Below, piece after piece: positions 59,182 through 64,000 of a DNA stretch of 64,000 nucleotides. Source of the stretch: Castellaniella sp. MT123 (GTDB lineage Bacteria > Pseudomonadota > Gammaproteobacteria > Burkholderiales > Burkholderiaceae_B); assembly GCF_039614765.1 (NCBI RefSeq), contig NZ_CP154879.1, positions 1,116,001-1,180,000 on the forward strand. Reading direction: 5' to 3'. The notes beneath the pieces are model-generated. The model searched no databases and was not told the DNA's origin. It saw nothing but the letters and a program-made list of their open reading frames with translations. How positions within the stretch are numbered: the first letter of the stretch is position 1; each line of letters opens with the position of its first letter. Position numbers and translations under genes: made by a program.

Positions 59182-59257
<76 letters not shown>

Positions 59258-59338: not shown

Positions 59339-60784
59339 GTGCTCACCCTGCCCATCTACCCCCGCAACGGCACCTACTACCTCCACACCCGGATCGCAGG
59401 CAGACAGATCAAGCGCTCGCTCGCGACAAGGGACAAGACTGAGGCTATCCTTGTAGGCTCGGAACTTCTCAAAAGGCTCTACAAGGCACTCAAAGCCACT
59501 GGTGGGAGTATGGACAAGGACGATTACAAAAAACTCGATATAGCCTTTCCTACGGGCTTTCAGGCCAAGATCAACACTGATGATGATATGGCCCGGTTTC
59601 AGGAGCTTTTGAAGAACCCTGATTTCTACGACCTGATCAGGCCAAGCACCCCTGCAGCACAACAAGCCAGAGCCTCAGAACAGCCTGTCCAAGCATCAGA
59701 GGCAGAGAACCTTACAGGGGTAAGCATCGCTGAAGTTGCCAGCAGGTATCAGACCAGACACCAGAAGCTCAAAGCCCCAAAAACTCTCTATGAGTATGGC
59801 AACTATCACCAGCATTTCAGCCGGTGGGTGGCTGTGAGGAAGCAGGCAGACCCCTACCCTATCAGGAACATCATCAATGACGACATCGCCGCCTACATTG
59901 ACGACCTGTTAGCAGACGGCAAGCCAGCACAAGCCATCCAGACCAAGTATCTCAGGGCTTTGAATGCTCTTTTTGAGTTTGCCAAGACCCTCGGCGCCTT
60001 CCCAAAGGACGTGCTTATTCCTACTCGTGGGCACAAGGTCTTCAACAAAAACAAACACAGAACCAACCGGAAACCCTTCACCACAGAAGAACTTCAACAG
60101 ATCTTTGAACCCCTGAACCTGAACAGGGCAAGACACCCAGAACAATACTGGTTGCCCTTGCTTGGCATCTTCACAGGGGGCCGCATTTCTGAATTGAGCC
60201 AACTCCAGATTACAGACATCAAGCAAATTGAAGGCGTCTGGACTATCAGCATCAATGACGAAGGCGACAAGCGAGCCAAGACCCTTGCCAGTATTCGCAC
60301 CATTCCTATTCACCCCACCCTTTTGGAAATTGGTTTTCTGGATTATGTAGAGGATATGAAGGGTTTCAATGGTCAACTTTTCCCGGACCTTCACCCCGAC
60401 AAATTCGGCCACTATGGCAAGCAGCCAAGTCAGCGATTTGGTGTTTATCTCGATAAGTTGGGCATTACAGATAGGGCAAAAGTCTTTCACTCATTCAGGA
60501 CAACAGCGAACAATTGTCTGAAACAGCAAGGTGTGCCAGAAGAAACAAGGTGTCAGTTTATCGGCCACGAACACGACACCATCAACAGTGCCACCTATGG
60601 GGAACCTCATAGCATGGCTTACCTGCTGGAGCATGCCGCCACAAAACTAATCTTTGATGTTGATTTCCAAAAAATCAAATATGAAAAAGACAGGTTCAAT
60701 GCCTACCTTGTCAAAGAAATTAGGCGGCAAGAAAGGATGGAAAACCATCAACAGGCAAAAAACTTAATCAAGAAAAAGCAATAA
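59339..60784 (+). CDS. tyrosine recombinase / integrase
   Basis: 481 residues from a GTG start. The N-terminus (YPRNGTYYLHTRIAGRQIKRS) is the DUF6538-type domain seen in many element integrases. A core-binding SAM-like region lies near residues 150-220. The catalytic domain has the Arg in IFTGGRISELSQLQ, HSFRTTANNCL (His-x-x-Arg) and FIGHEHDTINSATYGE with the presumed nucleophile Tyr. It presumably integrates and excises the element at tRNA-Ala. GC content is intermediate between the core genome and the following genes. Two TTGGTAGCA direct repeats lie just before the start. Confidence 0.92.
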   Translation: MLTLPIYPRNGTYYLHTRIAGRQIKRSLATRDKTEAILVGSELLKRLYKALKATGGSMDKDDYKKLDIAFPTGFQAKINTDDDMARFQELLKNPDFYDLIRPSTPAAQQARASEQPVQASEAENLTGVSIAEVASRYQTRHQKLKAPKTLYEYGNYHQHFSRWVAVRKQADPYPIRNIINDDIAAYIDDLLADGKPAQAIQTKYLRALNALFEFAKTLGAFPKDVLIPTRGHKVFNKNKHRTNRKPFTTEELQQIFEPLNLNRARHPEQYWLPLLGIFTGGRISELSQLQITDIKQIEGVWTISINDEGDKRAKTLASIRTIPIHPTLLEIGFLDYVEDMKGFNGQLFPDLHPDKFGHYGKQPSQRFGVYLDKLGITDRAKVFHSFRTTANNCLKQQGVPEETRCQFIGHEHDTINSATYGEPHSMAYLLEHAATKLIFDVDFQKIKYEKDRFNAYLVKEIRRQERMENHQQAKNLIKKKQ

Positions 60785-60813: not shown

Positions 60814-61869
60814 ATGAGCATAATATCCGAAAAATTCAATTCAAAAATAAATGCCCTAAAGAGCGCCTTTGAGGAAAATAAGGAAATTGAACACCAGGGA
60901 ATTAAAGGGGGGCTAAACGAAATCGAGCTTAGTTCCTTAATAAAAGACATCATCCCAAAAAAATACAGAATCACAAAAGGAATAATTGAAAATTCCAACG
61001 GCGAACAATCCAATGAAACGGACGTCCTCATCTATGATGACGAAATACTTCCGCCATACATCAAGAATGAATTAACCTTTGTTCCAGTAGAAGCAGTAAA
61101 GTATATTTTTGAAGTAAAAAGCATATTAAATTCAACCGAACTCAAGACAACCATCAAAAAATTCGAAAACTACAAATCAATTGGAGGTCGCTCACCAACA
61201 GTGCTATTCGCTTTTTCCAGTGATATTAACGGAAGCGAACTATTGCGCTATTATAAAAACGACACCAATTTTTTTACGAACCCAGCAATAACTGTTTTGT
61301 GTTCCTCCAACAAAAGTTATTATTACAAACACGTTGAAGAACACTATCTTAAGGATCATTTGTCAGCAAGCGACTTCATAAATAATTTCAGCAAATCCAT
61401 TGGCCTAGAGGATTCAGCAGACCATTTTCCAAGTCTGAGGAAAAACAGTCACACACTAGATCAAATGACTCGATCTGAATTTGCCGCACTAATTGAAACA
61501 TCCATTAAAATAAAAGACTCAATAAGGAATCTGGACAATGAAAAACTGACTGTAAACGGAATCAGATATTCCGAAATTAAATACAAGATTCACAAATGGA
61601 TTGGAGTAGAAAGTCCAGATAACAATGTAGATTTATGCTTTCTATCAGGCATCTCAAACACCCTGTCTAAACAGAGCTTTGGAAGCTATTTACTTAACAA
61701 AAAAGAAATAGAATATAAAACACTTGCCATATGTTGTGAAGACATGTGGGGAAACATAAGTTGCCAAGATTTCGACAAACTAGGTCTAAATTACGACACC
61801 AATAAATTCAAGTTTAATTTTGAGAGCAATCATGAGTCTCACAAAATTACATTTACGGTTGACAAGTGA
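60814..61869 (+). CDS. DUF6602-like protein with a PD-(D/E)XK nuclease-type motif
   Basis: 351 residues, clearly AT-rich and Lys/Asn/Ile-rich compared with the core genome. The N-terminal third reads GLNEIELSSLIKDIIPKKYR, then NETDVLIYDDE and, after a gap, VEAVKYIFEVKS. Asp70 with Glu100-x-Lys102 forms the D...ExK signature of the PD-(D/E)XK nuclease fold; the layout matches what I know as DUF6602. The C-terminal ~200 residues are not recognised. It starts 29 bases after the integrase on the same strand and could share its transcript. Position behind an integrase is typical of defence cargo, but the function is inferred only. Confidence 0.65.
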   Translation: MSIISEKFNSKINALKSAFEENKEIEHQGIKGGLNEIELSSLIKDIIPKKYRITKGIIENSNGEQSNETDVLIYDDEILPPYIKNELTFVPVEAVKYIFEVKSILNSTELKTTIKKFENYKSIGGRSPTVLFAFSSDINGSELLRYYKNDTNFFTNPAITVLCSSNKSYYYKHVEEHYLKDHLSASDFINNFSKSIGLEDSADHFPSLRKNSHTLDQMTRSEFAALIETSIKIKDSIRNLDNEKLTVNGIRYSEIKYKIHKWIGVESPDNNVDLCFLSGISNTLSKQSFGSYLLNKKEIEYKTLAICCEDMWGNISCQDFDKLGLNYDTNKFKFNFESNHESHKITFTVDK

Positions 61870-61876
61870 ACTATGG

Positions 61877-63859
61877 TTAAGCAGCCAACCTATCAGCCTT
61901 AAATTTGAACTCTGTCTTTGTTTTATCCATAGATTTCCTCACCTCAAATATAAGCCATTCAGGATCTATTCCAAGATCAGATAGTATCTTTTGCCTACCA
62001 TTTTCCCAAGAGGTTTGGTGGTAGTCAGTCACATACTCATTCCAGTTCCCCCCAACGACATAGCCATTAACAATGATGGCTTGGCCGTCTTCAGTAGAAG
62101 GTGAGAACAACGGAGTATCGTAAGACAGCCCTTCTATCTCATAGATCTCTTTACCAGCAAAGCCATCCAATCCAGCAAATTCAATATCCTCAATGGGACA
62201 ATCACTTATTCCATAAATGTCCTTTAGTCCGCCTTGATATTTTTTGCTGAAATCTCCAACGCCCCCCATCTCTTCTTCCATTTCGCTGATCCAGCGGGCC
62301 ACATTAGCAGACCAAGGCCATTCTTTCCCAGTCTTCCTATTCCTTACCCAATGGCCGTGTTCTTCACTCCAGATATGGGTTCCATCCTTGAAAGCCAATA
62401 CTCGCCTATCGCCAAGAATAGGTTTTAGGGTTTTCTTCACTCTTGTTGGCCTTCCTTCAATTCCCATGACCATATCACCAACCACAATCTCTTGTATTGC
62501 TTTCAATGATCCATTTGCCATTAGAACTAATGAGTTTAATGGGAAACAGCAACCAGGTTCATAAACACAACTATCATCCCAGGACTTATTCTGCCCCAAA
62601 TAGGATACTGTACTATCTGAACAGTGATATTGATTATAATAATTCCAACCTGAACAACCACCGGTGTAATGGCTAAAAACATTCCAAGTAGATCCATTCG
62701 CATACCAGTAAATAGCACCACTTCTATTTTGACCGCACAGTCCTTCTAGCCCACTCATATCTAATGTCATCTGTTTCCAAATACCACTTTGACATGAAAG
62801 AATTTTTCCATCAGCATCTTTGGCAATTGTTCCATTAGTCACACCGGCACCACAAGCGGCATTTTTTGATACTACCTTATTTGGCAATAAGGTTTGGGCG
62901 TCAATTTGAGTATTCGCCGATATAGCTTTGGCATATATACTGCCAGGTGCCGTAGCCTTATTAACAAAATCAGCACCAACAACAATATCTCTATTGGTCA
63001 ATCCAGGAGCAGAGTTCATCTCATTTGTATTCACAGATCCTGAATATATAATTTCAGAATTCATGCTATCCGTATATAAATCGCCAGAATTATAAATGGT
63101 TTGAGTTCTCATATTCTGAAAATAGGCGCTCTGACTAGCCACATAAGTATCAACAGTCAGACTATTTACATTCTTGATGTTATTATTCCCCAGCAATAAA
63201 TCTCCAGTCATTTCATTTGAGCCATCACGTCTCAAATAACTACCATCATAATCATTAATTCCATTTGTTCTATAAGCCAGTATTCCAGCCTCACCGCCAT
63301 AAGGTAGATCAATATTTTGAATGGCCCAACCACCATTTAAGCCATTTATTTGAGTTCCTGTATCATCAGAAAATCCAACAGTATTACCAGCCTCTTTTGT
63401 GGCAATTCCAAGCAAATCATACCTAGGCTCATTATCACCAACAACAACAGGGCCGTCGGTGAAAACCAAACCTTCAATAGATTTGTTATCAACGTTTTTT
63501 AGGGCAATTTTATATCCGGTTTGGAGTAGCGAGTCATTAGTAAATGTTTGTGGCAATACTTCCTCAACAGGAACGCCATCAGGCACACAATCAACAGCAT
63601 TTGTGAGAATACAAATATCTAATGTCTTTGTATCACCAGACGCAATGGCAGCCAATAATGCCGACTTATTATTACTAACATAAGACTGCAGAGCATTACC
63701 CAATTCCTTTATCTTTTCACCCGCATTTTTTGCTTTTGTTTTCTCAGCATTTCTTTGAAGCTGAAGCATTACCCCAATCGAAATTAACGCCATAATTCCA
63801 ATCACAACTAACGTTTCAATTAACGTAAATGCCTCTTTTGTTTTTCTTATTATTCTCAT
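61877..63859 (-). CDS. PilV-like type IVb prepilin/adhesin with C-terminal Hint domain
   Basis: 660 residues, low GC. Residues 8-31 are a class III prepilin leader: processing after KEA10, Phe11 at +1, Glu15 at +5, then a hydrophobic helix (TLVVIGIMALISIGVML). Residues ~40-365 resemble the constant part of PilV minor pilins of IncI-type conjugative pili, ending in the familiar TNGTIAKDADGKILSCQSG pattern (341-359). A Cys-rich segment (375-431) follows. From Cys437/Cys438 (CFPLNSLVLMANGSLKAI) to VVNG-type IIVNGYVVGGN605 the sequence is a Hint (hedgehog/intein) domain, with a block-B-like WSEEHGHWV at 497-505. A 55-residue tail ends the protein. In classical PilV the C-terminus binds recipient LPS and is swapped by a shufflon; no shufflon repeats or rci gene are visible here. 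The start at 63859 has GAAGG 8 bases upstream. It converges on the PD-(D/E)XK gene with 7 bases between. Confidence 0.82.
   Translation of the reverse strand: MRIIRKTKEAFTLIETLVVIGIMALISIGVMLQLQRNAEKTKAKNAGEKIKELGNALQSYVSNNKSALLAAIASGDTKTLDICILTNAVDCVPDGVPVEEVLPQTFTNDSLLQTGYKIALKNVDNKSIEGLVFTDGPVVVGDNEPRYDLLGIATKEAGNTVGFSDDTGTQINGLNGGWAIQNIDLPYGGEAGILAYRTNGINDYDGSYLRRDGSNEMTGDLLLGNNNIKNVNSLTVDTYVASQSAYFQNMRTQTIYNSGDLYTDSMNSEIIYSGSVNTNEMNSAPGLTNRDIVVGADFVNKATAPGSIYAKAISANTQIDAQTLLPNKVVSKNAACGAGVTNGTIAKDADGKILSCQSGIWKQMTLDMSGLEGLCGQNRSGAIYWYANGSTWNVFSHYTGGCSGWNYYNQYHCSDSTVSYLGQNKSWDDSCVYEPGCCFPLNSLVLMANGSLKAIQEIVVGDMVMGIEGRPTRVKKTLKPILGDRRVLAFKDGTHIWSEEHGHWVRNRKTGKEWPWSANVARWISEMEEEMGGVGDFSKKYQGGLKDIYGISDCPIEDIEFAGLDGFAGKEIYEIEGLSYDTPLFSPSTEDGQAIIVNGYVVGGNWNEYVTDYHQTSWENGRQKILSDLGIDPEWLIFEVRKSMDKTKTEFKFKADRLAA
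62045..62551 (-). other. Hint (hedgehog/intein) domain coding segment
   Basis: Encodes residues 437-605 of the prepilin. Block A is CFPLNSLVLMANG followed by IVVGDMVMGIEG. The block B His is in EEHGHWV. The last strand is EIYEIEGLSYD...IIVNGYVVGGN. The downstream residue after Asn605 is Trp, not Cys/Ser/Thr, so full protein splicing is unlikely; cleavage or hedgehog-like transfer is more plausible. Confidence 0.7.
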
Positions 63860-63898: not shown

Positions 63899-64000
63899 TT
63901 ACTGAATATTATCCGATCTCTCAAATGAATTAGATTTATTTCCATCAGCTAATGGGTTAATAATTTCATCTTGTTTTTTATTTTCATTCACTGCATTTTT
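63899..64000 (-). CDS. C-terminal fragment of an unidentified protein, cut by window edge
   Basis: On the minus strand a frame is open from the window edge to a TAA at 63899. The last 33 residues end NSFERSDNIQ and are polar and Asn/Lys-rich. It lies 39 bases upstream of the prepilin start and would be the preceding gene of the same operon, where pil genes are expected. Too short to identify. Confidence 0.4.
   Translation of the reverse strand, partial: KNAVNENKKQDEIINPLADGNKSNSFERSDNIQ

Follow-up and report, generated by a model that had tools for sequence, protein, structure and literature searches.

A PilV-like prepilin with a C-terminal Hint domain on a putative integrative mobilizable element of Castellaniella sp. 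MT123

The DNA analysed here, referred to as the window, is a stretch of 64,000 nucleotides from the chromosome of Castellaniella sp. MT123, and positions are counted from its first letter unless stated otherwise. Near its end, a minus-strand frame at 61877-63859 runs without interruption across 660 residues and encodes a PilV-like prepilin with a C-terminal Hint domain (pilV-hint), an assignment that draws on the intact frame, tblastn, phage Hint matches and alignment. The protein opens with a prepilin leader and N-terminal helix (residues 1-30, MRIIRKTKEA/FTLIE; 63770-63859, on the minus strand like every part of the gene), where the Pfam model N_methyl matches residues 6-30 with an E-value of 4.7e-4 and 20.1 bits, 1.1 bits below its cut-off of 21.2. 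Judged by its sequence, KEA/FTLIE is an ordinary type IV prepilin/pseudopilin leader and not a 'class III' leader, as it had been called in the original prediction. The PilV-like stalk (residues 31-361; 62777-63769) ends in LSCQSGIW and is followed by a Cys-containing segment of 76 residues (362-437; 62549-62776), which has the position and length of an exchangeable PilV tip. The Hint domain (residues 438-604; 62048-62548), recognized through Pfam, phage matches, alignment and predicted fold, begins with Cys438, the predicted catalytic nucleophile of block A (codon 62546-62548), and contains His501, the predicted block B histidine within the motif WSEEH (codon 62357-62359). A C-terminal extension (residues 605-660; 61880-62047) completes the protein.

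In tblastn searches of plasmids, residues 1-361 matched the annotated PilV of the E. coli record CP088875 with an E-value of 4e-21 over residues 8-361; 11 plasmid records were matched, six of which cover at least 80% of residues 1-361. The whole 660-residue protein reached an annotated PilV with an E-value of 2e-20, and 580 records at E ≤0.01. A multiple alignment places LSCQSGIW at the junction that precedes the variable tip, as LSCQSGxW, in all PilVs compared. The Pfam model Shufflon_N (PF04917) gave no significant match (none at E 1 with hmmscan; 11.6 bits and E 0.29 in a genome search), and for this reason the protein is filed as PilV-like and not as a Shufflon_N member, its stalk being assigned by pairwise matches. 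The fusion of a PilV-like prepilin with a Hint domain placed behind the tip, as originally predicted, is confirmed by the tblastn matches, the junction and the predicted Hint fold, and lies far beyond chance. The PilVs compared measure 333-487 residues, their tips 55-80 residues (10 in one case), and their last Cys lies one to four residues from the end, often as CC. In PilV-Hint the stretch from the junction to Cys438 is 76 residues long and reads ...PGCC at this point; searched by itself, the tip segment (residues 362-437) found no relatives in plasmids. Given a tip of this length and the anatomy of PilVs, removal of the Hint domain would therefore leave a PilV of ordinary overall length (437 residues) and ordinary tip length, and on this anatomical argument trimming before Cys438 is the reading that we favour.

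From Cys438 onwards the protein matches the Pfam model Hom_end_hint with an E-value of 6.9e-7 and 29.9 bits, just below the cut-off of 32.1. AlphaFold2 modelled the domain with a pTM of 0.70 from seven sequences and 0.85 from 14 (mean pLDDT 84). Foldseek matched the predicted domain to inteins, bacterial intein-like (BIL) domains and Hedgehog proteins (best E 1.3e-6; 39 chains at E ≤0.001), and structural alignment retrieved 79 PDB chains with Z of at least 8, the 50 of these 79 that were listed all being inteins, BIL or Hedgehog. The BIL2 structure 6y75 aligned with Z 15.5 over 142 residues at 2.6 A, the Clostridium thermocellum BIL with Z 13.6 and Hedgehog 1at0 with Z 12.7. As modelled, the Hint fold is present and intact, in line with the structural check that had been suggested. 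The nucleophile had been given as C437/C438; C438 is the predicted catalytic residue, falling in the structural alignment (as model residue 7) on residue 1 of several inteins and on Hedgehog Cys258, and C437 is not. Conservation of Cys and His among the homologues was also borne out: Cys438 and His501 are invariant in the 14-member alignment, along with Trp504, Asp536, Gly599 and Tyr600, and so are Tyr613 and Trp618 behind the domain (14/14). Aromatic residues strongly conserved in the family include W497, W504, W514 and Y600.

None of the 14 aligned family members has the terminal His-Asn that inteins carry, and splicing is therefore not expected; in the Hint model the position of the intein terminal Asn falls on Gly604. 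A splicing intein or BIL type A domain was accordingly rejected, and IIVNGYVVGGN can no longer be read as a splicing end. Hint chemistry starts with an N-to-S acyl shift that yields a thioester at Cys1 and, by this established chemistry, a domain that keeps Cys1 and has lost His-Asn could carry out the first step but not splice (PMC7765530). BIL type B domains are described as having intein-like motifs without a C-terminal motif and as cleaving N-terminally (PMC7765530); the motif pattern of our Hint domain, set beside this description only, fits it. In Hog (Hedgehog) domains a nucleophile is recruited by an extension following the Hint; the candidate counterpart here is the conserved extension carrying Tyr613 and Trp618.

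Where else does this Hint domain occur? In tblastn searches of phages it matched gp028 of Achromobacter phage JWF (E 6e-24) and a protein of Providencia phage PSTNGR1 (E 1e-11). The former gene lies in the tail region, two genes behind the central tail fibre, and the latter directly behind a tail fibre gene with a T7-type N-terminus and an S74 chaperone. Scanning viral contigs with a single sequence yielded no Hint relatives, whereas alignment-based scans, with the whole domain first and its C-terminal motif second, did add members; those viral-contig relatives with readable context look like tail-fibre C-termini. A Shufflon_N match in JWF gp028 (E 5.3e-7) shows that the kinship of tail fibres and pilus tips goes beyond the Hint domain. 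In a tree of 29 Hint domains the PilV Hint falls among fibre Hints (support 82/88, then 89/91) and apart from those of polymorphic toxins, a grouping in which we have moderate confidence, as its branches are long and the bootstrap is rough. Among the genomes searched, a single fusion to PilV was encountered: a search of the plasmid collection with the Hint domain returned nothing better than E 0.1, and no further PilV-Hint fusion turned up in plasmids, in partly overlapping sets of 200 relatives and of 369 class, 399 order and 398 phylum genomes, or in GTDB contigs as far as the limited reach of one pattern extends. The homologues surveyed thus supply no second fusion from which conservation might be judged. 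In JWF a Cys-Asn repeat, CNCDCNCNC (L007:8077-11598), stands in front of the tail-fibre Hint, and two genes after this Hint lies a radical SAM protein, which might modify the Cys-rich segment. Bacterial contigs (L112 and L115 of genome G739, L041, L035) carry further Hints that lack His-Asn and lie C-terminally, following Cys-Asn or collagen-like repeats; in G739 such genes are two near-identical neighbours.

The surroundings of pilV-hint are those of a small inserted element. A tRNA-Ala (CGC) gene predicted by ARAGORN (59182-59257, plus strand) is the insertion site; its last 18 bases, TCCTCCTCGTCTCCACCA, form attL (59240-59257, plus strand), and an exact 18-base copy, attR, lies beyond the window at 70581-70598 as counted from its start. 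From the 3' end of the tRNA gene to attR the element measures 11.4 kb, and for the greater part its G+C content is 33-44%, compared with roughly 60-65% in the flanking DNA. A tyrosine integrase follows the tRNA gene (59339-60784, plus strand; Pfam Phage_integrase E 8.7e-6, NCBIfam XerA-like E 6.6e-9). Next comes a cargo gene (60814-61869, plus strand), convergent with pilV-hint, for a DUF6602 protein (Pfam E 1.1e-24) similar to PD-(D/E)xK and NucC-like nucleases (PADLOC PD_DExK E 3e-33, NucC E 1.4e-22); from these PADLOC model matches it might be a defence effector. Directly upstream of pilV-hint is the 3' part of a minus-strand frame of 92 residues (63899-64000, continuing beyond the window; L002:900-1178), possibly a small regulator, with no family match above cut-off. 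The element further encodes a NikA-like protein, an MbeA-like relaxase with only distant relatives in plasmids, a replicase/PriCT (Rep) protein, a protein with an H-NS C-terminal domain, and small membrane and regulator proteins. The 11.4 kb yielded neither mating-pair genes nor any further pilus gene, and for want of the former a complete conjugative element was rejected. Genome G641, of the same species, joins the tRNA locus up to 59,303 directly to 82,345 and lacks both the element and a second island. By its gene content, with integrase, att repeats and relaxase and no mating-pair genes, the carrier is a putative integrative mobilizable element, of which pilV-hint is cargo. The second island lies right behind it, past the window end (L002:7986-19048), and holds type I restriction-modification genes with a PDC-S02 protein, as well as TGT-like, QueC-like and TIR (ThsB-like) genes.

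The original interpretation is supported in part: the PilV kinship survives, but neither a linked pilus operon nor a shufflon is present, the gene being element cargo. No sfx-like site was seen at the 3' end of pilV-hint with the consensus used, there are no strong inverted repeats at the gene and no Rci beside it, and the integrase on the tRNA side of the element is the only recombinase seen; lacking recombination repeats and Rci, a shufflon system was rejected. A type IVb pilus operon lies elsewhere on the same chromosome (chromosomal positions 1,321,762-1,330,660), with a PilN-family secretin (E 1.3e-58), an ATPase, a PilS-like pilin and a TcpQ-domain protein, so that the chromosome offers a pilus that could take an extra tip. 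The operon has its own PilV-like tip gene, with a 68-residue tip and four Cys, and this gene occurs in nine of the ten genomes of the genus; the chromosome also has two loci with VirB4-family ATPases. That PilV-Hint pairs with the resident pilus we infer solely from the genome they share.

Lone pilV genes are found in other bacteria. The nearest stalk relative, in CP088875, sits not in a plasmid pil operon but amid E. coli chromosome (dcm, hchA, zinT), next to an integrase, a PilS-domain pilin, a TraD-family protein and a MobA/MobL relaxase (L144:13474-22556). Listed as an E. coli plasmid, this record includes ordinary E. coli chromosome over a long distance; its label is probably wrong. E. 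coli ATCC 25922 shows the same arrangement next to zinT (L145:8539-16733). The orphan gene was detected in 564 of 5,426 complete E. coli genomes and is always chromosomal, its context having been read in one of them and in CP088875. Another lone PilV-like gene lies with mobC on the 5.8-kb Klebsiella aerogenes plasmid pMB5632_6 (L140:1013-2185). The mobilizable island SGI1 swaps subunits in the mating apparatus supplied by its helper for versions of its own and profits from this (PMC5389848); which recipient is chosen in liquid is determined by the PilV tip (PMC9045228, PMC5430464, PMC10654706). From the orphan pilV cargo, the SGI1 precedent and recipient choice by PilV together follows the role that we propose, the steering of a borrowed pilus.

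Based on these observations, we propose a model in which pilV-hint encodes an orphan PilV-type tip adhesin that matures itself through a non-splicing Hint domain and is loaded on a resident or helper pilus, a reading that we consider probable, if by no great measure. The precursor would be a PilV-type pilus-tip adhesin bearing a C-terminal, bacterial-intein-like Hint domain that does not splice. An N-to-S acyl shift at the Cys437-Cys438 bond would generate a thioester, to be resolved by water or another nucleophile, and the Hint domain would be shed, leaving a PilV of 437 residues ending in Cys. Either the type IVb machine encoded on the host chromosome or the pilus machine of a helper element may then take up the trimmed adhesin, and the mobilizable element would thereby set the tip specificity of a pilus encoded elsewhere. 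Release of the tip or its covalent transfer, as envisaged in the original prediction, would both be reasonable outcomes. Against trimming, Cys437 and Cys438 could be engaged in disulfides outside the cell, and phage tail fibres with a Hint domain need not be processed either.

Might the Hint domain be catalytically silent and instead bind receptors at, or cap, the ends of fibres and pili? The extreme C-terminus is where receptor-binding domains of fibres lie, and the strongly conserved aromatics W497, W504, W514 and Y600 would suit such a function; however, a silent module would not need Cys438 and His501, both invariant in 14 diverse members, and we regard this as rather unlikely. Alternatively, the C-terminus of the tip, once activated by the domain, could be handed to a nucleophile on another part of the pilus or on the surface of the recipient, with Hedgehog cholesterol transfer as the model and the Tyr/Trp extension as acceptor-binding element, an idea akin to the 'chemical harpoons' that Gram-positive adhesins form with internal thioesters (PMC4450167). 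Retention of Cys1 and His despite loss of the splicing end is consistent with such covalent attachment, as are the extension conserved behind the domain (Tyr613 and Trp618, 14/14), of a kind that Hedgehog also has, and the location of family members with readable context at the tips of host-recognition fibres. Against this, no acceptor is known, the thioester would have to last until contact, and the extension gives no direct sign of an acceptor-binding fold; covalent attachment appears to us unlikely.

Hint domains often precede toxin domains in secreted bacterial proteins, and L037, L039 and L079 hold candidates of this kind. Release of a C-terminal toxin into a target cell would nonetheless have to make do with the 56 residues behind the Hint domain, whose conserved part is common to phage tail fibres; moreover, the neighbouring gene is the convergent DUF6602 gene instead of a same-strand immunity gene behind pilV-hint, and the tree sets the domain with fibre Hints and not with polymorphic toxins, all of which makes the toxin logic highly improbable. 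A functionless, degenerate intein remnant or an assembly chimera would explain why a single instance was found in the genomes searched. Yet the frame is open with no stop, the core is conserved, the assembly is one contig representing a complete chromosome, and the Hint domain sits exactly behind a segment of tip length, so that we give such an origin scarcely any credence.

What are the implications of a self-maturing PilV-type adhesin? PilV tips decide which recipients a donor holds in liquid. A predicted self-processing domain at this very place, common to tail fibres and a pilus tip, points to a shared post-translational step by which tips mature or act. The setting further suggests that tip adhesins are carried by mobilizable elements lacking a pilus as a means of steering the pili they borrow. 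A bolder generalization, a class of fibres with a 'reactive tip' in which the shared Hint subfamily forms a thioester at the fibre end and joins it covalently to the target surface while the mobilizable element re-aims a borrowed pilus, strikes us as decidedly doubtful. None of the components, be it the Hint domain, the PilV adhesin or the mobilizable island, is new in itself. The claim that no PilV-Hint system had been described held in that no paper combining PilV with a Hint domain was found in the open literature searched; it did not extend to the Hint domain itself, which is not unique and has kin at phage tail-fibre C-termini. The open papers searched gave no description of Hint domains at tail-fibre tips, and we found no earlier account there of the PilV-Hint fusion or of a Hint subfamily common to the tips of tail fibres and pilus adhesins.

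The system that we describe shares features with several known ones. The PilVs of IncI1/IncI2 plasmids (R64, R721, TP114) have the same prepilin leader, stalk, LSCQSGxW junction and variable, Cys-containing tip; unlike them, PilV-Hint has neither shufflon repeats and Rci nor a linked pil operon, and bears a Hint domain behind its tip. The tail-fibre Hints of Achromobacter phage JWF (gp028), phage 2-1, Providencia phage PSTNGR1 and several IMG/VR contigs belong to the same subfamily, mostly at 30-42% identity, with the same C-terminal placement and invariant residues, but they are fused to tail fibres, partly behind a Cys-Asn repeat (CNCNC), and not to a pilin. BIL type B domains and the Hedgehog Hog domain have in common with PilV-Hint the Hint fold, the N-terminal Cys and the want of a terminal His-Asn (PMC7765530), and differ from it in sequence subfamily and host protein, our domain being known from sequence and model. 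The orphan pilV (and pilS) islands of E. coli resemble the Castellaniella element in having an integrase and a relaxase beside the gene and no pilus operon, whereas their PilV has an ordinary tip without a Hint domain and a PilS-like pilin adjacent. Finally, SGI1 with its TraN, TraH and TraG is a mobilizable island that brings replacement subunits for the mating apparatus of its helper (PMC5389848), as proposed here; in SGI1 these are mating-pore subunits demonstrated by experiment, whereas in Castellaniella the inferred replacement would be the tip of the pilus.
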